Source: a virus
IMG/VR virus record: IMGVR_UViG_3300035698_002505
Span: 1 to 37,926 of that record
Strand: one strand, 5' to 3'
DNA length: 37,926 bases
Below the pieces are notes generated by a model, which saw only the letters and a list, made by a program, of their open reading frames with translations, was not told the DNA's origin and ran no database searches. Shown here one piece after another: positions 746-37,202 of this stretch; the stretch's first letter is position 1; each line of letters begins with the position of its first letter. Both the position numbers and the translations under genes were made by a program.

Positions 746-1564
746 TTACCTGCGGAAGAGTCCGCGTCGTTGGCGTTGGGGGCAAGTCGGGCAAACGTAT
801 GTCCGTACCACTTGCTTGTCCTTAGTCGTTCTAACCTTCTGCGTCACTTTGACGGGTACGCTTCGAGAGACGTTGACGTATTGAACCTGTAGCCGTCCTT
901 CATGGTCGTCGCTATGGATCGCGTGTAGCTCGTTTACGGTCAGCGTATCAAGCCAACTACTCTTGTACCTTCCCCGGTGTTTCGGAGCCGTCTTGAGATG
1001 GTGGAGTACCGTAGTGCGGTTGGCGTAGTAGACTCCGTTGACGCTCCACCATCCCCCGCGTACGGGATAGCTACGAGAAGTCTTGACGGTTACGGGTACT
1101 CGTATCGGCTTCGGTCTTTCGTTCACGCCGTTGTAGAGCCAACCCAGAGACCAAACGTCAACCGGCTCTCCGCAACCCGCTACGAATTGTCGAACTCGTA
1201 CGCCGTCTTTGTAGTAAACGAACGCGGGCAACCCTTCGTCGGCTCCCACGAGATTCTCTAGTGAGTGTCCGTAGGTAAGATCGACGATCTGGATATGGTT
1301 ACTCGGCTCGGAGCCGATCGTCCAGCCCTGCTCGATAAGAGCCGGGAAGACCGTCGAGCGTAGCTCCTTCGCCCGCGTAACGCACGGCGGGCACGTAGAC
1401 GACGTAAAGTATAGAACTCTCCCCCCGCGTACGCTCGGGGGCGTATAGACGCCTACGCGGACGGCTACGAACGGGCTATGATTAGGCGGCTCGCCGAACG
1501 GGTTATGGTTCGCCCGTAGGGTAGTCGCTTGTACGAGCAGTAGTAACGCTATTAGGTATCGCAT
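746..1564 (-). CDS. Secreted thioredoxin-fold protein (CPPC) with planctomycete-phage-type C-terminal domain
   Basis: The 272-aa protein starts with a signal peptide (MRYLIALLLLVQATTLRA). A thioredoxin-like domain follows, with strand VLYFTSSTCPPC, so the redox motif is C58-P-P-C61, and a plausible cis-Pro turn (GLPAFVYYKDG). The C-terminal half contains a GGWWSVNGVYYANRTTVLHH segment and a His/Asp-rich LHAIHSDDHEGR stretch, then a basic tail with another CPTC. Thiol-disulfide exchange outside the cytoplasm is the expected activity. The start overlaps the matrixin stop as TAATG, so the two are translationally coupled. Redox control or folding of the Cys-rich matrixin is a tempting inference. 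Alternatively it is a virion or lysis component of unknown role. Confidence 0.75.
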   Translation of the reverse strand: MRYLIALLLLVQATTLRANHNPFGEPPNHSPFVAVRVGVYTPPSVRGGRVLYFTSSTCPPCVTRAKELRSTVFPALIEQGWTIGSEPSNHIQIVDLTYGHSLENLVGADEGLPAFVYYKDGVRVRQFVAGCGEPVDVWSLGWLYNGVNERPKPIRVPVTVKTSRSYPVRGGWWSVNGVYYANRTTVLHHLKTAPKHRGRYKSSWLDTLTVNELHAIHSDDHEGRLQVQYVNVSRSVPVKVTQKVRTTKDKQVVRTYVCPTCPQRQRRGLFRR

Positions 1565-2421
1565 TAGAATGGTCCGTGGTTCGAGTTACCTTCGCTCCCC
1601 CCGCCGACGATCGGCGATAGGTACAGATCATGCCGCTTGCCGTCGATCGAAATGTAGCCATCCCGTTCTTGAGGATCGGTAGGCGGCTGCGGTTCCGGTT
1701 CGGGCGTCGTGTTCTTTCCGTATCGAGTAACGACTTGGTTGATGTCCCACGCTTGCGGCTTCGTATACTTACCAATCGCCGTAGCGTTCATGATCGAGTT
1801 AGATGGGCCGTGGCTCAAACCGAGAGCGTGTCCAAGCTCGTGAGTAGCTACTTCGAGGAGCTTCTTATAACTCCAAGTCCAGCCTACTCCGTACCGTTGT
1901 TGAAGAGTCTCTCCGCAATTCTGGTTAGGAAGATACGACCAAGCGAGTACGCTTCCATCTGTCTTCCCTACTTCGGCTCTGATCCTTGAGCCGTTGTAAT
2001 TCTCGTTATGGTTGAGGTTCGCTCCACAAACGGTTGACCAATTGCGTAGAGCTTCGATCCATACCGCGTGAGCTTGGTCGTTCGTTAGTCCTTTGAGACC
2101 GTGAAGACGATGGGCACAAGTGATATCGAGTTGGCAACTCTCCGGCCATTCGCTTACTGACTCTCGCCTCTCTTCGTAGTCCGGTCTTCCGCAACGGGGC
2201 AACGCCATGTGAGCGGAAGTAATCGCCCCGAGTTCTCCATCACTTTGGAGTCCGTTGTTTCGTTGGTAGAGAGCTACCGTCTCTTCGGTACGTCGGTCGG
2301 TCGATTTCAGTTGCCGTACTTCGCTATTGCTAAGCTCTTGGAGATAGCCGAGCCGCTTGAGGTATTGGAGTTGGGTATCGAGAGCTTGTATACAATCGGC
2401 GTTGATAAATGTTTCTCTCAT
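1564..2421 (-). CDS. Matrixin-type zinc metalloprotease with cysteine-switch propeptide
   Basis: The architecture is that of a matrix metalloprotease zymogen. Residues about 14-72 form a PG_binding_1-like helical propeptide (LKRLGYL ... LYQRNNGLQSDGELG). Next comes the cysteine switch PRCGRPD (75-81, C77), then a catalytic domain with HELGHALGLSH (H194, H198, H204 zinc ligands, E195 base) and a Met-turn at SIMN (M211). The C-terminus has a Pro/Glu linker and a short tail. No signal peptide is visible, so export would depend on a holin or on virion incorporation. The start overlaps the upstream stop as ATGA, and the stop overlaps the thioredoxin start. It sits in what looks like the lysis cassette, where no recognisable peptidoglycan hydrolase is present, so it may attack a protein-rich cell wall or S-layer. 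The family call is strong; the role is inferred. Confidence 0.88.
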   Translation of the reverse strand: MRETFINADCIQALDTQLQYLKRLGYLQELSNSEVRQLKSTDRRTEETVALYQRNNGLQSDGELGAITSAHMALPRCGRPDYEERRESVSEWPESCQLDITCAHRLHGLKGLTNDQAHAVWIEALRNWSTVCGANLNHNENYNGSRIRAEVGKTDGSVLAWSYLPNQNCGETLQQRYGVGWTWSYKKLLEVATHELGHALGLSHGPSNSIMNATAIGKYTKPQAWDINQVVTRYGKNTTPEPEPQPPTDPQERDGYISIDGKRHDLYLSPIVGGGSEGNSNHGPF

Positions 2422-3137
2422 CGTATCGCCTCCAGTAGACCTTCAGCGATCTCAATGTAAGCCGCAGCGTAATCGTCACCGTCGAGTTCTCCGCTTCCTA
2501 CTAACTTGTCCATCGCACTCGCAAGGTTAGTACCCCACGTAGTCCAATGCGTTACGTTAGCTCCGAGAGCCTTTTGATTTCGTTCCTTTACCTTGTCCCA
2601 AACGTCTCCGAGAGTCTGGAACTTTCCGGCTTTGATTTCTGTAACAGTAGCGAGATAGCCCGCAGCCATTTGAGAGGCTTCTACGTTTCGCTTCGGCGAC
2701 TCGACTGCCTTAGTCCATCGCTCTACTTGGTCGGTTAGTCCGAAGCGATCGCTGTCGTCATCGATTGGCGGAGTCGTAGGTATGTCGGGTATACCTCCCG
2801 GCTCGCCTACGGTTACGGTATGCTGTTGTTGAGCGAGCGTTACTGTGCCGTCTTCGTCGCACGATCCTACGGTCAGTACGAAGTTGTATCGAGCGGCTTT
2901 CAGTCCGCTAGAGAAAACCAACTCCTGCTCCGACTCGTACTGACGAATGTTATCGGACGAGAGATTGGGCGGGAGTAGCCAAATGAATCCGCTCCCTTCG
3001 CTATCCGCGTACGAGAGTATGACTAGAGTACCAGGATCAACTTCCGTCGGTCCTTGGATAGATGCTGAGGGACCATCCGCAAATAGCGGAGTAGTAACCA
3101 GAGCCAGCGTACCAATTATCGCTCCTAAACTTCGCAT
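2418..3137 (-). CDS. Secreted Ig/PKD-like protein of unknown function
   Basis: A signal peptide (MRSLGAIIGTLALVTTPLFA) is followed by a short beta-sandwich-like region beginning PSASIQGPTEVDPGTLVIL, similar in style to PKD/Ig-like domains. A Pro/Thr linker (IPDIPTTPPIDDD) follows, then an alpha-helical C-terminal half (DQVERWTKAVESPKRN onward). AGGAGCGA precedes the ATG. The gene is translationally coupled (ATGA) to the downstream matrixin and follows two small membrane proteins, so it belongs to the same expression unit. It could be a chaperone, anchor or partner of the protease. No catalytic motif is seen. Confidence 0.7.
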   Translation of the reverse strand: MRSLGAIIGTLALVTTPLFADGPSASIQGPTEVDPGTLVILSYADSEGSGFIWLLPPNLSSDNIRQYESEQELVFSSGLKAARYNFVLTVGSCDEDGTVTLAQQQHTVTVGEPGGIPDIPTTPPIDDDSDRFGLTDQVERWTKAVESPKRNVEASQMAAGYLATVTEIKAGKFQTLGDVWDKVKERNQKALGANVTHWTTWGTNLASAMDKLVGSGELDGDDYAAAYIEIAEGLLEAIR

Positions 3138-3148
3138 GAGTCGCTCCT

Positions 3149-3358
3149 CTAAGAGTCCTTGTTATTGGCAATCCACTTACGTCCTACGTTGGCTAGTACG
3201 GACCAGCCCGCTACGACGATCGGCGTCCACTGACCGAAGTTCTCGCCCGTTACGAACTCCGTGCCGTAGGTTAGAGCCGCTCCCAATACGGCTACGAGTA
3301 ATCCATTGCCGAGCTTCTTGAAGTCGGTAGGGTCTAGTACAAATCGTTTGCTCCCCAT
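3149..3358 (-). CDS. Small membrane protein, holin candidate
   Basis: This 69-aa protein has one clear hydrophobic segment (NGLLVAVLGAALTYGTEFV, about 18-36) and a second weaker one (WTPIVVAGWSVLANVG, about 44-59), with a basic C-terminus (RKWIANNKDS). Size, two short membrane helices and position beside another membrane protein and the protease resemble small phage holins. GGGAG lies upstream of the ATG. Holin assignment is by form and context only. Confidence 0.6.
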   Translation of the reverse strand: MGSKRFVLDPTDFKKLGNGLLVAVLGAALTYGTEFVTGENFGQWTPIVVAGWSVLANVGRKWIANNKDS

Positions 3359-3367
3359 GAGTACTCC

Positions 3368-3697
3368 CTAGTCGTTACTGGTCTGGTTTTTCGGTGCTAC
3401 TATCTGAAGAACTCGATCCAATTTGAGACCGTGCTCGTTGATCTTAGCGAGTATCTCTCGGTGACCGCTTTCTAGATTATCGATGCGAGGTCTTCCTTCA
3501 ATAACATACAACCCATTAGTGCGAGAGATTTCAGTGAATCCCTCTTTCACGACTCGCTTTGCTCGAATGTCAATGTCATCTAACGTAGGGCCGCGCATCG
3601 CAAGAGCCGTACCAAAGTTCGTAACGGCGACCGATAGGAGTAGTCCGCTGATCCACTTCCATACGTCGGCGTTGCCCCCTGAATTCCTAGGCACCAT
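3368..3697 (-). CDS. Membrane-anchored coiled-coil protein, lysis accessory candidate
   Basis: The 109-aa protein has a single N-terminal membrane segment (WKWISGLLLSVAVTNFGTAL, about 14-33) followed by a soluble helical region with heptad-like spacing (NLESGHREILAKINEHGLKL). This layout resembles haemolysin-XhlA-like proteins and inner-membrane spanins. The ribosome-binding site is weak. It sits between the head-tail connector genes and the holin candidate. No sequence motif fixes the function. Confidence 0.55.
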   Translation of the reverse strand: MVPRNSGGNADVWKWISGLLLSVAVTNFGTALAMRGPTLDDIDIRAKRVVKEGFTEISRTNGLYVIEGRPRIDNLESGHREILAKINEHGLKLDRVLQIVAPKNQTSND

Positions 3698-8522: not shown

Positions 8523-11189
8523 TTAACGTAATCCCAACGGGTTATTGTCCATAGTATCTATTGCCGCCTGATAAAATTTCCTGAGCTTACTCGTCAGTAG
8601 ACCAGGATCGATAGATGCCGCAGAGTGAGCTTCCGCAAACAACTCAACCGGATGAGTCGTAGCGTACCCAGACAAGCGAAGAGACTCAGACTCGCCTAGC
8701 CCACCTACTTTCCTAACGGCGGCTTGAATATCTAAAAATCCTAAACTGTCAATGTGGTGTCCTACTTCGTGGGCTACCGCAAACTCAAGAGCTTCGTCGG
8801 GAGATTTCGCAGCTTGCCAGACAAAGTTACGTTTGCCAATTGGCTCACCAGCAAAATCCTTAACTACCTTCTCTAATGAATGGCTTCGAGTTCCTTTCAA
8901 TCCTCCTTCAGCAATAGACAGCCTACCGCCGTTACTAGGAGAATACCCGAAGCCAGTAGACTCAACTCCCCCTCCTTCTCCTACAACCCTCACAGTCTTG
9001 ATAGCAAACTCCCTACCTCCTACACCAAGCGACTTTTCCAACGCTCTCTCTACCGCCTGGGCTTCTGAAACGCTCAGTCCAGTTAGGTCTACATCTTGAG
9101 CCAAGTTCTTTGCCTTGATCGATTGCTCTACAGAACGTACTGACAACTTGGGATCGGCTTTAGGCGTTGGTTTTGTAGTCGGCTTGGACTTTGGTTTGAC
9201 CTTCGGCGTAACGTCGTCGAGAATACTCTTAGGTCGCTTGCGAGCAATCTTCGTATCGGCTCCCGCCCACTTCGATATCTTCCGTTGGTCCGCTATCGAT
9301 CGCTTCGACCGCTTTGGTATCTCTGCCTTGAGAGACTTACCAATAGCTTCGTCAACGTCGCCCTTCGATCGTATCTGCCCCTTCTGACTCTCGCCTACGT
9401 TCGCGGGCTTGAACGCACAACGGCAATTACTAGATACGATCCCGTTTATCGAGTATAGTGAAGTCTCACTAGTCACATCGTAAACAGAAAGGGATTGAAC
9501 ATGCCTAAAGGTTACCTGTTTGACATCAATGAGTATCCCGCCGATAAGATTATCGAGTTGTACCTGGGAGGAGAGAGCCAGACTGCTGTCAAAAATGCTC
9601 TGGGACTTCCCGATGGGATGGTTCGACGAATTCTCAAGGCTCGATCTATCCCTATGAGAACTCAGGCCGACGCTAACCGGCTCACGATGAGCAAGCGAAC
9701 GAGCGAGGAGAATAGACTCAACGTTCAATCCGCTCACAATACCGTCAGAGGACGTACCCGCTCGTTTGAAGAACTGAGAAAGCAATCCACCACTATCCAG
9801 AGTCAGGGAATCGAAGGTGGCAACGTCTCCCCGCCGGAGAAGCGATTCTATGAATTGGCTACTTCTCTTGGTCTGTCGTTGACTCCCCAATACGCTATCG
9901 GCACCTACAATGCTGATTTTAGAATCGACGGACGCCCCATCACCGTGGAAATCTTCGGGGGACGCAACCGACTCCAGTACCAATCCTTTCTCGACTACTT
10001 CAATAAGCGACTCAAATACATCCGCAATCAGGGGTTCTCTCAGATACTGATTTGGTGTCTTTCCAAGTCTATCGTAGGGAGTGTTAACGAGACGATCAAA
10101 ATTTGTAATCTCTTTAGCGAAGACCCAACCACGCTGCGTAAGCAATACGTGATTACCAGTCACGGAAATCCGTCTTCCATCGGGCAAGGTAAGATCAACT
10201 ATCAATCCGGTATACTCCGCCGACATTATACCGACTAATCCGGGGGAGCAAATTCGCATCTCCCCTGTCACACAGTTCGGATGGCGAGGGATCATGCCGT
10301 GTCCCTCCGCTATCTTCAACACTACTTCGTCCATCGGCTGACAAAGTTGGCATACACGATCGTCTCCCGCCGTCTGCCACTCGACCATGACGCCTACTTC
10401 TTCGACGCCTAACTTTTCCATCGCGTCTAACTGACCTTCAGCGTGAGCTCGGATGATCTCCGTACGAGCCATCGTCAACGCTCGTTGCTTACCGATGCCG
10501 TCTACGTTCTTGGCTATCGCTCTCGCTATCTCGCGTGGGTTCTGCCCGCGTACTAGCCCGTCCGTAAGCGTACGCGAGAGGGAAGCTCCCATAGATTCGG
10601 TGACGCCTTTGAGGTCGGTATAGACTCGACTGGCGAGTAGCTTCGTCTTGGCTATCGTTTCGGGTTGGGCGAAGGCATCGCGTAGGAACTGATCCTTGGT
10701 TCCTTCATAGAAGTCTAGGTTAGCTTGCGTGGCTGGTTTGCGTACGTCGTCGAAAGCTCTACCGGCTCCCTTGCGATAGCCTTCGTCAATGTAGGCTTTC
10801 CAATACGCATCTTCGGTAGCACTCTCGACGGTTAGGATACCGGCTTGAACTTGTTGCTCGAGCCAAGTACGGAATCCAGCAACCTTCTCCGCATCCGATC
10901 GGAAGGCGAAGCGGGTATTGCGGGCGAATGGATTAGTACGTTGCTTCAAGCCGAACGCATCTTCCAGTACGATCAACCGTACGATCTTCGCCTTCAACGC
11001 CGCGAACCGTTTACGGAAGTCTGTCTGTATTTTTCGGCGTAGCGTTGCTGTCCGCGTCGGGTCCGTCTTCATCGGGTTGCGTGACGTTCGGTGCTTCGGC
11101 TTCTTCCGAGCGTTTGCTACCATCGCGTCCCAGTCGATCTTCGGAATGTAGCGACTTGTAGTAACCGTCGTCATCTTTAGTATCCCCAT
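8523..11189 (-). CDS. Mu-F-like head morphogenesis protein with intein and C-terminal metallopeptidase-like domain
   Basis: An uninterrupted 888-codon frame (numbering from ATG 11189; a second ATG lies at 11174, and the conserved region starts near KTDPTRTATLRRK, residue 41). Residues about 41-305 are a Mu-gpF-like minor head domain with ARTEIIRAHAEGQL, DDRVCQLC and IPRHPN. The expected HPNCRCAF motif is split: HPN is residues 303-305 and CRCAF resumes at 589. Residues 306-588 are an intein. The C-terminal part has a Lys/Pro linker, then a domain with AVAHEVGHHID (HEVGH 807-811) and ELFAEAHSA, a gluzincin-like metal site as in polyvalent metallopeptidase domains. Spliced product about 605 aa. 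Minor capsid protein acting in head assembly, perhaps ejected with DNA. Confidence 0.88.
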   Translation of the reverse strand: MGILKMTTVTTSRYIPKIDWDAMVANARKKPKHRTSRNPMKTDPTRTATLRRKIQTDFRKRFAALKAKIVRLIVLEDAFGLKQRTNPFARNTRFAFRSDAEKVAGFRTWLEQQVQAGILTVESATEDAYWKAYIDEGYRKGAGRAFDDVRKPATQANLDFYEGTKDQFLRDAFAQPETIAKTKLLASRVYTDLKGVTESMGASLSRTLTDGLVRGQNPREIARAIAKNVDGIGKQRALTMARTEIIRAHAEGQLDAMEKLGVEEVGVMVEWQTAGDDRVCQLCQPMDEVVLKIAEGHGMIPRHPNCVTGEMRICSPGLVGIMSAEYTGLIVDLTLPDGRRISVTGNHVLLTQRGWVFAKEITNFDRLVNTPYDRLGKTPNQYLREPLIADVFESLIEVVEKGLVLESVASPEDFHGDGASVDSKISIVGADSVLGSQRQTKRSSQFIESLLRRGDVATFDSLTLDSGGLLSQFFKRAGTSSDGIVSGLNVESILLARSLAHREPVSVGLSSHRDRSSLENSSNHPIGKSQSIFDSSLALSSQVQLDNLIGGILIDVKQVTFRHVQSLSVYDVTSETSLYSINGIVSSNCRCAFKPANVGESQKGQIRSKGDVDEAIGKSLKAEIPKRSKRSIADQRKISKWAGADTKIARKRPKSILDDVTPKVKPKSKPTTKPTPKADPKLSVRSVEQSIKAKNLAQDVDLTGLSVSEAQAVERALEKSLGVGGREFAIKTVRVVGEGGGVESTGFGYSPSNGGRLSIAEGGLKGTRSHSLEKVVKDFAGEPIGKRNFVWQAAKSPDEALEFAVAHEVGHHIDSLGFLDIQAAVRKVGGLGESESLRLSGYATTHPVELFAEAHSAASIDPGLLTSKLRKFYQAAIDTMDNNPLGLR
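9426..10274 (-). other. Intein within the Mu-F-like head protein
   Basis: Residues 306-588 of the host protein interrupt HPN|CRC exactly. The intein begins with Cys (CVTGEMRI, block A). It has a block B-like TGNHVLLTQRGWVFAKEI (T344, H347) and a block F/G-like end VYDVTSETSLYSINGIVSSN, and is followed by Cys+1. The terminal Asn is present, but the usual penultimate His is Ser. No LAGLIDADG or in-frame endonuclease motif is seen. The central region (about residues 375-545) is Ser/Leu/Asp-rich and low in recognisable structure. Nearly all of it is overlapped on the plus strand by a complete endonuclease gene. Excision would restore the capsid protein. Confidence 0.85.
9501..10238 (+). CDS. HTH + Vsr/EDxHD-like homing endonuclease, antisense within the intein
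   Basis: The 245-aa protein starts at ATG with AAAGGG 7 nt upstream (an in-frame TTG lies 6 nt earlier). Residues about 10-62 form a helix-turn-helix unit (PADKIIELYLGGESQTAVKN ... GMVRRILKARSIPMRTQADA). Residues about 110-190 look like a PD-(D/E)xK/Vsr-fold nuclease: PPEKRFYELATSLGLSLT (E113), YNADFRIDGRPITVEIFGG (D139, E150), then a basic helix and FSQILIWCLS. This matches the style of EDxHD homing endonucleases related to Vsr. It lies wholly inside the intein coding sequence but on the opposite strand, in exact codon register. It is one of only two convincing plus-strand genes and would drive intein homing into the HPN|CRC site. Confidence 0.85.
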   Translation: MPKGYLFDINEYPADKIIELYLGGESQTAVKNALGLPDGMVRRILKARSIPMRTQADANRLTMSKRTSEENRLNVQSAHNTVRGRTRSFEELRKQSTTIQSQGIEGGNVSPPEKRFYELATSLGLSLTPQYAIGTYNADFRIDGRPITVEIFGGRNRLQYQSFLDYFNKRLKYIRNQGFSQILIWCLSKSIVGSVNETIKICNLFSEDPTTLRKQYVITSHGNPSSIGQGKINYQSGILRRHYTD

Positions 11190-26505: not shown

Positions 26506-27339
26506 TTATCCTATATTCCAAAAGAGGGTATTGCCGTCGAGCGGATGTATGTCCATCCACCATCGGAACGTCTTCAAGTCATAGTAGGGATTACACGGCC
26601 ACGGCGGAGTTCCCCCTGGTCTCGCCGTATCTCGGTAGGCGTACCTCTCATCCACTAATGTAAGGTCAACCGAGTATCCCGACTGCTCTCGCACGTACCT
26701 TCTAACTTGGTCGTGGGAGCGGGAGTAGCCGAGATGCAGTATGAACTCTGGTCTATCGAATCTACGGAAATCGCAGAATCCCTTAACGACTCCCGCCGCT
26801 ATCGTCCCGCTACTAACCGGGATAATCACCCGATCAAATACCGTACCCGTTGTAGGAACCTCCTTCGCCGTTTCCGTTACCGACTCCGGGAGCTTCAAAG
26901 CGTTCGGCATCATATATCCGCCCCGAGATTCACAGAGCTTCTTCGATTGGTGAAAGAGGATTGCCGACCGACCGGCTGGAAGCGGATAGAGACCGGCTCC
27001 AAGTTCTTTCGCTTGTAGTTGAGCTTCTCGTGGCCCCGGCTCTCCCACGTAGTTCGGATAATAGTTCACGCACTTCTTACCGAGTATCTCGCACGCTCTC
27101 GCTACGGCGTGTCCGGCTTGAGAATGGTAGGTGTCGAGTACGCCGATGATATTCTCGGGGCGACTCTTTACGTGAGCGTAGACTCCCCGAGTCTTCGAGA
27201 ACGCTGGCCCAGGTCGAAGGCACGAGAGGTCTTCTCGCTTTACCCACAACCCGTATTCGGCTTGGTGCTCTTCGATCGGCGTACCTTCCCGGAGCATCCC
27301 CCCGGCTACGATCTTCCCTCGACTCCGTACGGCTACCAT
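26506..27339 (-). CDS. PLP-dependent enzyme, fold type II
   Basis: A 277-aa product from ATG 27339 (GGGAGAGGAC upstream), overlapping the previous stop. The N-terminus reads VKREDLSC, then AFSKTRG with the likely PLP lysine K49, a DTYHSQAGHAVARACEILGK segment as in tryptophan-synthase-beta/cysteine-synthase folds, and a phosphate-binding VSSGTIAAGV loop (176-183). Similar in layout to D-cysteine desulfhydrase or ACC-deaminase relatives. In hypermodifying phages a PLP enzyme decarboxylates or remodels the amino acid attached to the base. That role is inferred from its neighbours. Confidence 0.75.
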   Translation of the reverse strand: MVAVRSRGKIVAGGMLREGTPIEEHQAEYGLWVKREDLSCLRPGPAFSKTRGVYAHVKSRPENIIGVLDTYHSQAGHAVARACEILGKKCVNYYPNYVGEPGPREAQLQAKELGAGLYPLPAGRSAILFHQSKKLCESRGGYMMPNALKLPESVTETAKEVPTTGTVFDRVIIPVSSGTIAAGVVKGFCDFRRFDRPEFILHLGYSRSHDQVRRYVREQSGYSVDLTLVDERYAYRDTARPGGTPPWPCNPYYDLKTFRWWMDIHPLDGNTLFWNIG

Positions 27340-28139
27340 AGGTGTCCTCTCCCCGCTCGTAAGAGCTTCTGCGACGTAGTACACCGCGAGAACCTTAGAA
27401 GCCCCCTACGGCACGCTCGTATGTCTTCTCCGGCTTCGTAGTGCCCCCCTAACGACGACTTCCACTTGCAGAGGATCGTCTCCGCTTCCTGCCCGTTTAT
27501 CGCTCGCTCGTATCTCGGAGGGGCTAGATAGTCGCCTAGGCGTGCGAGGATCGCCCGTACGGCTCTTTCCGACGTATCTGAGGGGTATTCGCCGTCCTTC
27601 TCCCCGGAGGCTCTCTCGTAGCGATCGTAGGCGATTTCCGCCCCCTTCTTCGGGCTATCGAACAAGAATATATCGCTTGTAGAGAAGTCTACCCGAAGTA
27701 AGTTGAGCCGCTCTAACATATCAGCGACTTTGAACGCTATCCAAGGTCCGAAGCCTACCCACTTCTTCACGCGATCCATCACGACTTCGGCTGAGACGGC
27801 TCCCCGGTTCCCTCCGTCTCGAAGACGAAAGAACAGGTCACCGACTCCCCGAGCCGCTAGGTACTCAACCGACTTCCGAGCGTTCTCTCCCCGGAAGTGT
27901 CTACGCTCGGTACAACGCGGATACTCATTGGAACCGGCAGCTAGTCGAAACCGATTCCAGTACTCGTAGGGATGATCCGTAATCCACGAAGCCGTACCGA
28001 CATGGTAGAAGCACCAGTAAGCGAGGAGCCAACTCTCTAATTCGTTTGGCCCCCATTCGGCTTCGTGGAGTAGGACGTAGACTGGATCAAGATCGTTGGT
28101 CTCTAGTAGCTCTCCGCCGAACTCAAACAGGTTGCTCAT
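27333..28139 (-). CDS. HhH-type amino-acid:DNA transferase candidate (alpha-GPT-pyrophosphorylase-like)
   Basis: The 268-aa helical protein has a WGPNELESWLLAYWCFYHVG opening, DHPYEYWNRFRLAAG, a RHFRGENARKSVEYLAARGV helix, and a helix-hairpin-helix-like VKKWVGFGPWIAFKVADMLE, then VDFSTSDIFLFDSPKKGAEI. This pattern resembles the HhH-GPD-derived transferases that install amino acids on phosphorylated 5-hydroxymethyl-uracil in DNA (ViI/SP10/phiW-14 pathway families described by comparative genomics). It overlaps the PLP and radical SAM genes at both ends. The family assignment is from memory of pattern; substrate unknown. Confidence 0.6.
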   Translation of the reverse strand: MSNLFEFGGELLETNDLDPVYVLLHEAEWGPNELESWLLAYWCFYHVGTASWITDHPYEYWNRFRLAAGSNEYPRCTERRHFRGENARKSVEYLAARGVGDLFFRLRDGGNRGAVSAEVVMDRVKKWVGFGPWIAFKVADMLERLNLLRVDFSTSDIFLFDSPKKGAEIAYDRYERASGEKDGEYPSDTSERAVRAILARLGDYLAPPRYERAINGQEAETILCKWKSSLGGHYEAGEDIRACRRGLLRFSRCTTSQKLLRAGRGHLW

Positions 28140-29505
28140 GGAACGGCACTTTCAAGTCTACGAGTTGGAGAGCCTTCGCTTGTCCGGCTAACTCGTCGCC
28201 GCATCTCGGCTCGCCGTTATTCTCCGAAGCACAATATAGACAACCGCTTGGAGGACACTCTTCGATCGGCTGAAACATATCGCCTTCGCTAGATCGTTCG
28301 TACACCGGAACTCTCTGGCCGTGGCATTGGTCTGCCGTCGTATACTTTCGACCGATACTCACGCCCGTCTTATTGATGATGTCTCCAACTTCGTTTCTCT
28401 CGTACTCGTACTCGTAGCAAGTCGCGTAGGTGAGTCCGTACTTCCGAGCGTAGGTGGAGTAGAGCTTGTGAGCCTTCATCCGGTAGCTCTCGACGATCGT
28501 ACGTTGTCCGCCGATATTCTCGGTGAAGAGTTCTTCAAAGGCTCTCCCCCTATCGCCGAACCGTCGTATCAAACGCTCGGCCATCGCGGGAGCCCAAGAG
28601 TAACCGGCTTCAACGAACTTAACGATGACGTGATCGGCTCCCGCATCGGCTAACATCTTGAAGAGCTTAACAATCTGATCGTTCGACGTTATACCTGGCA
28701 TGATCGGATTACACTGGATGGAGACGTAGATACCGTTACGCTTGAGCCGCGTGATATCTCGCAGATGTCCGTCCAGAGATAGTGCCCCCGGTGAGAGTCG
28801 TCTCCAGTCTTCTGCGTCGGGAGTATTGAGAGACTTCTGAGCGTAGCTATGGGGATTCTGCTTCATCAGATCGATAGCCCATCTCGGATATCGAAGGCGA
28901 CTCAAGAAGAAGATCGGAAGACCGACGGCCACGAACTCTTTAGCGGCTTCTTCGGTGTTATGATAATACTCTTCGAGCGGGGTGAACGGATCGGTGAACG
29001 ACGAGAAGTAACCAGCAGCGGCTCGGTTCATTGAACTAAGCTGCTCCTTGATTTGTTCTCCGTAGTTCTCCGGTACGGTAATCAATCCTGTACCTCGATA
29101 GCCCCGGAAGCCGGAGTTGATATAACAGAACGCACAACCGACTGCGCACCAACCTCCGTACGGTTCCGTTAAGACGGCTTCGCTGAAACAAGGTCTCGCC
29201 CGTACTCCCGGCGACTCGTGAAGACTTTTGTACCAGCCCTGGAGTTTCTTCGCGTTCTTAATCCGCATGTGGGGATACGGTTCCAGGTACGCCGTAATTG
29301 ACTTCTTGTTATCCTCCTTCGCGTTACGGGTCATCCCAATCTTCATATCGCGGACTTTGATTCTACGTCCGGTCAACTCGTCCTTGATCGTTCGGATCGG
29401 TCCTAGATCGTCGAACGGTTCTGGCCGCATAAAATACTCGTACTTTTCGTACGCGGTATTGATATCGTCGCCTACGTCCTTAACCAACCATGCGTCCTGT
29501 TCCAT
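28123..29505 (-). CDS. Radical SAM enzyme
   Basis: The 460-aa protein has the cluster motif C120-A-V-G-C124-A-F-C127-Y, a CxxxCxxC radical SAM signature. It is followed by GYFSSFTDPFTPLEEYYHNT, strand GLPIFFLSRLRYP, a SLDGHLRDITRLKRNGIYVS block and NPIMPGITSNDQIVKLFKM. The C-terminus has extra cysteines (CPPSGCLYCASE ... CGDEL) that may hold a second cluster. In hypermodifying phages a radical SAM isomerase rearranges the amino-acyl group on the base. Here it lies between the kinase-like and HhH transferase-like genes. Confidence 0.82.
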   Translation of the reverse strand: MEQDAWLVKDVGDDINTAYEKYEYFMRPEPFDDLGPIRTIKDELTGRRIKVRDMKIGMTRNAKEDNKKSITAYLEPYPHMRIKNAKKLQGWYKSLHESPGVRARPCFSEAVLTEPYGGWCAVGCAFCYINSGFRGYRGTGLITVPENYGEQIKEQLSSMNRAAAGYFSSFTDPFTPLEEYYHNTEEAAKEFVAVGLPIFFLSRLRYPRWAIDLMKQNPHSYAQKSLNTPDAEDWRRLSPGALSLDGHLRDITRLKRNGIYVSIQCNPIMPGITSNDQIVKLFKMLADAGADHVIVKFVEAGYSWAPAMAERLIRRFGDRGRAFEELFTENIGGQRTIVESYRMKAHKLYSTYARKYGLTYATCYEYEYERNEVGDIINKTGVSIGRKYTTADQCHGQRVPVYERSSEGDMFQPIEECPPSGCLYCASENNGEPRCGDELAGQAKALQLVDLKVPFHEQPV

Positions 29506-35857: not shown

Positions 35858-37027
35858 CTACTCGCCCGATTCGAGAGCCGACCACAAGACGGACTTGTAA
35901 CTCTTACCGTCGTCCAGATTCTTGAGGTTGACTTTCTCGCTTCCCTCGAAGACGGCAGTAACTTCGCACTCAACCGCCTTGCGAGCATTCGGCGGCTTGT
36001 ACAGGAATACGTCGCCTTTATCGGGATTGAAGTTGCTGTCAGTTTCGCCTTCGGCTTGGAAGAGAGCTTCGGCGAGACCACTCCAAGACTCGTAGGCGTC
36101 GGGATCAAGACCGGCTTCAATACCCGCGTTATTGAGCGTAGTGATCGCCTCTTCATCTTCGGCATCGGCGGCTTCCCCAAGAGCTGGATAATCCACGATG
36201 TCTTCCGCCTTTCCAACTTCGTCCGCTTCGGCTTCTTCTTCTGGCGGAGACTCGACCGAGATAGCTACGTCCACCCAGGAAGCTGCGTTGTCGATATCGT
36301 CTTGGGAGATACCGGCTGCGAGAGCTTTCGTTTGGAGTTCGTTCGCGGCTTCTCCGTCTCCACCGTCAGCAGCTTCTCCGATGTCGGTCAAACTCGTTTC
36401 ATTCTTCGCTGCCGCAGCATTACCTTTCGCCTTCGCTTTCGTCGGCGGAGCTTCGGCGGTCTCGTCTACGACGCCATCAGCTTCTTCGGGCACGTAGTTT
36501 TCCAATCCTCTGATGCCGGACCACTGATGGTTAATTCGCGGGTCGGGATACTGTTCGGTAGCTTCGCCCTTCCAAGTTCGGAATCGGAAGTACGGTGCCT
36601 CTTCTTTGAGAGTCTCGACGACTGATTCCAAGTCGTCAAATTCGAGTCCTTCAGTTTCCACTCCAAGCTTCTTGAGTTCGTTTACAACCCAAGCCAAATG
36701 CTCGTCCACGGTAGACCGAGAGCGGCTCGGAGTATCGCAGACCGGCTCCATGATCATCGTCGAGAGACCGGCAATCGGCAACCCTTCGTGCATCGTCGGC
36801 GTAACGACTACGCCGCGAGCAAGGAAGAAGACTTCACCTTCCATATCTCCTTTCTTGTAGTTACTAAAGCGGCAATCGACAAGTTGGGCTACGCCGTTGT
36901 CGATACCTTCGGGAAGGTCTCCACCCATCCCCATTTGTACTTCATCAGCCTTGTGGGCGTCAAACGCTTTCTTGCCTTTCGCTCCGAGCTTGGCTAGCAC
37001 ACCGCCGCTGGTCGTCTGTCGTGGCAT
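35858..37027 (-). CDS. Large acidic phage protein, probable ssDNA-binding / recombination partner
   Basis: The 389-aa protein has an N-terminal folded region (about 35-185) with GVAQLVDCRFSNYKKGDMEG, VFFLARGVVVTPTMHEGLPI, LSTMIMEPVCDTPSRSRSTV and PYFRFRTWKGEATEQYPDPR, a beta-rich pattern compatible with an OB-fold. A long acidic Ala/Glu/Asp region with short helical repeats (GEAADGGDGEAANEL, GEAADAEDEEAITTL) follows. It ends in a small beta domain (DVFLYKPPNARKAVECEVTA, VNLKNLDDGKSYKSVLW) resembling SH3/Tudor-like folds. It is next to the Sak4-like ATPase, where SSB-type genes are usual. AAGGAGAAG precedes the ATG. Function inferred. Confidence 0.6.
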   Translation of the reverse strand: MPRQTTSGGVLAKLGAKGKKAFDAHKADEVQMGMGGDLPEGIDNGVAQLVDCRFSNYKKGDMEGEVFFLARGVVVTPTMHEGLPIAGLSTMIMEPVCDTPSRSRSTVDEHLAWVVNELKKLGVETEGLEFDDLESVVETLKEEAPYFRFRTWKGEATEQYPDPRINHQWSGIRGLENYVPEEADGVVDETAEAPPTKAKAKGNAAAAKNETSLTDIGEAADGGDGEAANELQTKALAAGISQDDIDNAASWVDVAISVESPPEEEAEADEVGKAEDIVDYPALGEAADAEDEEAITTLNNAGIEAGLDPDAYESWSGLAEALFQAEGETDSNFNPDKGDVFLYKPPNARKAVECEVTAVFEGSEKVNLKNLDDGKSYKSVLWSALESGE

Positions 37028-37202
37028 CGTCTTCTTCTCCTTCGGTAGTTAATGAACCTACAATCTCTCCCCGGAGTATAACAACTCCATTGGGGGACTT
37101 TACACCAATCAGCACTCGCTTACCGCGTACTTCCAGTACACGTACTTCGTTCACGCCGTCTATCAAAATACTCTCGCCAACCTTTCGAGTCAGTACCAGC
37201 AT
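36960..37202 (-). CDS. csrA: CsrA-family RNA-binding regulator
   Basis: Residues 1-50, MLVLTRKVGESILIDGVNEV then RVLEVRGKRVLIGVKSPNGV and VILRGEI, match CsrA (the MLVLTRK start, beta-strand core and VRGKRV/RGE RNA-binding residues). The C-terminal 30 residues are an acidic, then basic tail not typical of the 60-residue family, and this tail overlaps the next gene by 68 bp. AGGAGG precedes the ATG. CsrA dimers bind GGA in mRNA leaders and block or stabilise translation. A phage copy could retune host or phage genes. Confidence 0.88.
   Translation of the reverse strand: MLVLTRKVGESILIDGVNEVRVLEVRGKRVLIGVKSPNGVVILRGEIVGSLTTEGEEDDATTDDQRRCASQARSERQESV

Follow-up and report, generated by a model that had tools for sequence, protein, structure and literature searches.

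The window analysed here, the whole 37,926-nucleotide stretch, is a linear phage fragment with one end inside tail-like genes. On its minus strand, at 1564–2421, a single intact open reading frame encodes a protein of 285 amino acids without a signal peptide. The product is very probably the zymogen of a matrixin (family M10) governed by a cysteine switch. Pfam places a PG_binding_1 domain at residues 19–72 (E = 3.6e-7) and a Peptidase_M10 domain at residues 155–216 (E = 9.9e-8). These are the only two families over their curated cut-offs, and no peptidoglycan-cleaving domain was recognised in the frame. The PG_binding_1-type segment (2206–2367, minus strand) corresponds to a helical propeptide and appears as helices in an AlphaFold2 model. 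It is followed on the same strand by the cysteine switch PRCGRPD at residues 75–81 (2179–2199), with the cysteine at position 77. Then comes the catalytic zinc motif HELGHALGLSH at residues 194–204 (1810–1842), identified by Pfam and by motif position, and downstream of it the Met-turn IMN at residues 210–212 (1786–1794), with the methionine at 211. This is the order found in the pro-forms of matrix metalloproteases (proMMPs). The initial annotation had named the protein an MMP-type zymogen with a cysteine switch and with these four elements in the right order; sequence, profile and predicted fold all bear that out. Shuffling the protein 20,000 times reproduced neither the PRCGRPD nor the HELGHALGLSH motif. 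The chain ends in a beta hairpin at residues 253–268 (1618–1665, minus strand), with strands at 253–259 and 262–268 in the model. Its pattern, G-I-ING-PY-LVP, is conserved among the phage matrixins (alignment A3), and it is possibly an anchoring signal.

The closest sequence in the PDB is human proMMP-1 (phmmer, E = 4.6e-6), and the alignment runs across PRCG.PD and HExxHxxGxxH. When the search is made with a profile of 37 phage relatives, proMMP-1 is matched at E = 9.9e-36, and pro-forms top the list. Human proMMP-1, -2, -3, -9 and -10 share with the phage protein the helical propeptide, the PRCGxPD switch, the HExxHxxGxxH motif, the Met-turn and the fold. In contrast to them, the phage protein has no signal peptide, no hemopexin domain and no structural-zinc histidines, and it sits in a phage operon. 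By hydropathy, its N-terminus is not hydrophobic, as it would be with the signal peptide of vertebrate MMPs. The vertebrate structural-zinc site, whose ligands in MMP-1 we take to be His/Asp/His/His, is missing in the proMMP-1 alignment: where MMP-1 reads LAH and AHFD, the phage protein reads LAW and QMYD, and the positions aligned with the histidines are not histidine.

An AlphaFold2 model of the zymogen was built from the 37 phage sequences of alignment A3 (pLDDT 82.7, pTM 0.74). Its catalytic domain has the MMP fold, with Z of 18–23 against PDB entries. The first 18 Foldseek matches in the PDB are proMMP chains, and the top 14 VIA-align matches are human proMMPs with Z of 21.3–23.1 over about 200–223 residues, covering both propeptide and catalytic domain. 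Since the superposition spans both, the model points to the zymogen arrangement, in which the propeptide is predicted to occupy the active site as it does in proMMPs. Because the zinc and the Cys–Zn bond lie outside the AlphaFold2 model, we infer from the proMMP-like superposition of the whole chain that C77 ligates the catalytic zinc and that the enzyme is latent. Cysteine switches are also present on different scaffolds in the bacterial metzincins mirolysin and myroilysin. Next in VIA-align is karilysin, an MMP of Tannerella forsythia (Z = 19.9), which is matched from residue 74 only. It is alike in the fold of the catalytic domain (Z 19–20), but its propeptide consists of 14 residues with an aspartate switch (PMC6949598), and it has no helical propeptide, unlike the phage zymogen. 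An uncharacterised protein of an uncultured Caudovirales phage, A0A6J5RTD2, also matches the predicted fold at full length (TM 0.64/0.61) with 15% identity.

A PG_binding_1 domain joined to a peptidase could also be read as an endolysin-like peptidoglycan endopeptidase, in which the first domain targets the wall and the M10 domain cuts stem or cross-link peptides. PHROG endolysin models do match the PG-binding part of the relative in L091 (8.7e-5 and 4.4e-4), and no other wall hydrolase was found among the families searched. However, that match is to the helical domain alone, which is the propeptide in proMMPs and which the model docks as a propeptide, and matrixins are established as proteinases. 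We regard the endopeptidase as unlikely.

A tblastn search found no match to the zymogen among 50,697 annotated phage genomes. The family was collected instead with a DNA pattern, CGxPD followed at the proper spacing by HExGHxxGxxH, which was run on 2.9 million viral contigs. It matched 79 of them, with an open frame in 78, and the switch-plus-zinc architecture is present in at least 78 viral contigs besides the window. The pattern-found family has 40 non-redundant members; 37 sequences were aligned. The protein of L002 has 42% identity to the window zymogen. Most of the members form one clade of proteins of about 270 amino acids, many of them on contigs of 158–205 kb. The conservation of C77 in this set is circular, since the pattern required the switch, and therefore the search was repeated from the L091 member without both motifs. 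All 30 relatives fetched with the motif-free patterns, which belong to one clade only, keep the switch and the zinc motif. The Met-turn methionine, M211, is kept in 37 of the 40 relatives, although it lies outside the search pattern; conservation outside the pattern further covers W92, W128, L159–A160, L164–P165 and Y234–G235. The family is under strong purifying selection, with dN of 0.04–0.10 against dS of 1.3–2.1 (dN/dS about 0.03–0.05). A hydrophobic N-terminus was found in none of the 37 aligned members.

The cysteine-switch matrixin architecture is already known from animals and from bacteria. Proteins of Paenibacillus sonchi (WP_202677761) and Streptomyces globosus (WP_114059382) have the identical two domains, with PRCGLPD and PRCGVPD as their respective switches; the former also carries C-terminal repeats. 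These genes lie on large cellular plasmids, and the proteins have about 30% identity to the phage protein. With the sequence patterns used, no cellular relatives were found among genome contigs, and a tree including two cellular matrixins did not resolve the branching. In the open-access literature, with subscription journals outside the coverage, no previous description of a phage MMP with a cysteine switch was found. What appears to be new is a wide family of such proteins in phages, in a lysis-type setting.

That setting is an operon on the minus strand, tightly coupled, whose other products are exported proteins and membrane proteins. The zymogen gene overlaps both neighbours: its ATG with the upstream stop codon in ATGA, and its stop codon with the following start in TAATG. 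The upstream gene (2418–3137) encodes a protein with an apparent signal peptide, homologues of which adjoin the zymogen in L059, L094 and L065. Farther upstream are a 69-aa protein (3149–3358) and a 109-aa protein (3368–3697), the latter having an N-terminal transmembrane helix and a hydrophilic tail by hydropathy. The 69-aa protein has two hydrophobic stretches by eye and is holin-like by topology only; its hydropathy maximum of 1.47 is below the threshold used, and it has no family match over cut-off. The product of the downstream gene (746–1564) carries a CPPC motif and, apparently, a signal peptide. We do not assign it as a thioredoxin: the motif is the only indication, no family or PDB match was found, BLAST detects no similarity to the Pfam-supported thioredoxin that adjoins the zymogen in L125, and a single-sequence AlphaFold2 model was uninformative. 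Next comes a small protein with a hydrophobic helix (339–794), homologous to L059:5445-5933 (phmmer, 3.5e-7). The L059 protein matches a profile of the 134-aa zymogen neighbour of the large phages at 2.7e-4, and hhalign gives a probability of 69%; we give moderate credence to this long-range link, made by sequence comparison, between 339–794 and that membrane protein. With a zymogen lacking a signal peptide, coupled genes and membrane neighbours, the lysis-like cassette described in the initial annotation is supported.

Of 80 loci in the relatives, 66 have the 134-aa membrane protein next to the zymogen. In the large phages, the adjacent gene, as in L132:4245-4676, encodes a protein with two transmembrane helices by hydropathy and a weak match to Phage_holin_10 (1.3e-4, below cut-off), a match seen in these relatives and not in the window. 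In L065, a subtilase (2.9e-40) follows immediately after the zymogen. Other genes seen near the zymogen encode methyltransferase-like proteins with apparent signal peptides (L125:6593-7114 and L059:4590-5399, close by), a protein that by eye is GroES-like (L002:735-1088, directly upstream) and one that by eye is a membrane-anchored CxxCH protein (L002:1878-3164, downstream). We treat G001, the 205,044-bp record of L091, as complete on account of a direct terminal repeat of 131 bp. In its open reading frames, the 25 listed of 71 Pfam families cover genes of myovirus type, genes for replication and for RNA polymerase, the M10 protein and a trypsin. This genome bears on the idea of a virion-associated protease, made with the structural genes and used for entry or for cutting extracellular matrix, which would be a plausible substrate for a matrix protease of animal type. 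The window gene does lie between the head–tail connector and presumed tail genes. In complete G001, however, the zymogen gene adjoins genes for membrane and exported proteins and is outside the main tail region, and we consider a virion role distinctly improbable.

Searches for eight wall-hydrolase families covered 22–31 records, among them 13 large phages as well as the window and L002. For seven of them (Amidase_2, Phage_lysozyme, SLT, NLPC_P60, M15_3, Amidase_3 and CHAP), no match over cut-off was found in these records. The eighth, M23, gave only matches below cut-off, all in large phages and including frames of roughly 1,480 amino acids. One M23 match, in a 626-aa protein of G001, falls inside an RNA polymerase subunit and is thus an artefact. 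Among 14 large records, 13 have a trypsin match over cut-off. The initial annotation had stated that the cassette lacks a recognisable glycan hydrolase. For the tested families this stands in the window, in L002 and in the large relatives, including the complete one; for the window by itself it proves little, because the window is a fragment ending in tail-like genes and an endolysin could lie beyond its end. The argument needs the complete relatives.

The capsid protein of the window has 49 relatives. In the closest of these, L003 (77%), a diverged metzincin is at the same place (L003:9461-10479); its frame is interrupted, and upstream stands ERCWVPD, which resembles a degenerate switch. Hydrolases behind the capsid or connector genes of other related phages are at L012:10917-11693, L010:14446-15256, L020:13083-13787 and L005:13572-14348, and the types found there are papain-like, trypsin-like and lipase. 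We rejected the notion of an interchangeable protease slot in the capsid relatives, as it would apply to a minority only: papain is present in 2 of 41 records and trypsin in 6, 4 of them over cut-off. That phages with the same capsid differ in the hydrolase they carry (metzincin, papain-like, trypsin-like or lipase) is how accessory genes behave, and the zymogen might be such a moron, altering the host surface or a competitor, for example against superinfection, and dispensable for release. The conserved gene neighbourhood and the strong purifying selection across a wide family argue against this, and we hold it to be very doubtful.

The best explanation, to which we assign a probability of about one half, is that the phage matrixin zymogen helps progeny release through proteolysis. 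The zymogen lies beside membrane genes, and no standard wall hydrolase was found in these viruses, which suggests that proteolysis may aid exit from the host. The initial annotation had offered the idea of a protein-cleaving lysin; it is plausible and is now better supported than before. That a role of this kind can exist is shown by a phage metzincin of Listeria that promotes phage-mediated lysis (PMC8235301). That protein, Mtz, is phage-derived, is encoded downstream of the holin and lysin of a prophage, and sensitises cells to lysis (PMC8235301). It resembles the zymogen as a phage metzincin near lysis genes, but differs in having a signal peptide and in accompanying an ordinary holin and lysin. 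Mtz also acts with a TIMP-like lipoprotein, which it cleaves, a further difference from the phage zymogen.

In the release mechanism that we propose, the protease would build up in the cytoplasm, a reducing compartment, in a folded and latent state in which C77 occupies the catalytic zinc. Late in infection, it would exit through a phage membrane protein. Outside the reducing cytoplasm, it would be activated by loss of the Cys–Zn bond, either by thiol chemistry or by clipping of the propeptide. Such clipping would be done by the zymogen itself or by a second exported protease from the same phage, for example the trypsin or the subtilisin seen in relatives. The activated protease would then cut host envelope proteins.

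Textbook phage release employs a holin and a peptidoglycan hydrolase. A wider proposal is that there is a class of phages in which secreted or holin-released proteases replace the peptidoglycan-cutting endolysin. In such phages, a latent cysteine-switch matrixin, activated at membrane permeabilisation and partly by a co-encoded trypsin or subtilisin, would dismantle a protein-based, load-bearing envelope layer. We put this forward as a rather improbable speculation. A phage family with membrane proteins and a protease zymogen, and with no match over cut-off to eight wall-hydrolase families, makes a protein-cutting lysis route testable. If confirmed, it would add phages to the bearers of the cysteine-switch matrixin architecture, which bears on the origin of that architecture, and would provide latent proteases switchable through one cysteine.

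Several other genes were observed in these phages. The window has a CsrA gene at 36960–37202 (Pfam, 8.1e-15), which carries no signal pointing to the host. An apparent CsrA, by its sequence, is also present in the otherwise different 205-kb phage with the zymogen (G001:160157-160447). A Mu-F-like head protein with an intein is encoded at 8523–11189 on the minus strand. Inside the intein, on the opposite strand (9495–10238, plus), is a 247-aa frame that by eye resembles a homing endonuclease of the Vsr/restriction fold; it has no Pfam match. The window also encodes a PLP-dependent (PALP) enzyme at 26506–27384 and a radical-SAM-like protein at 28123–29505.
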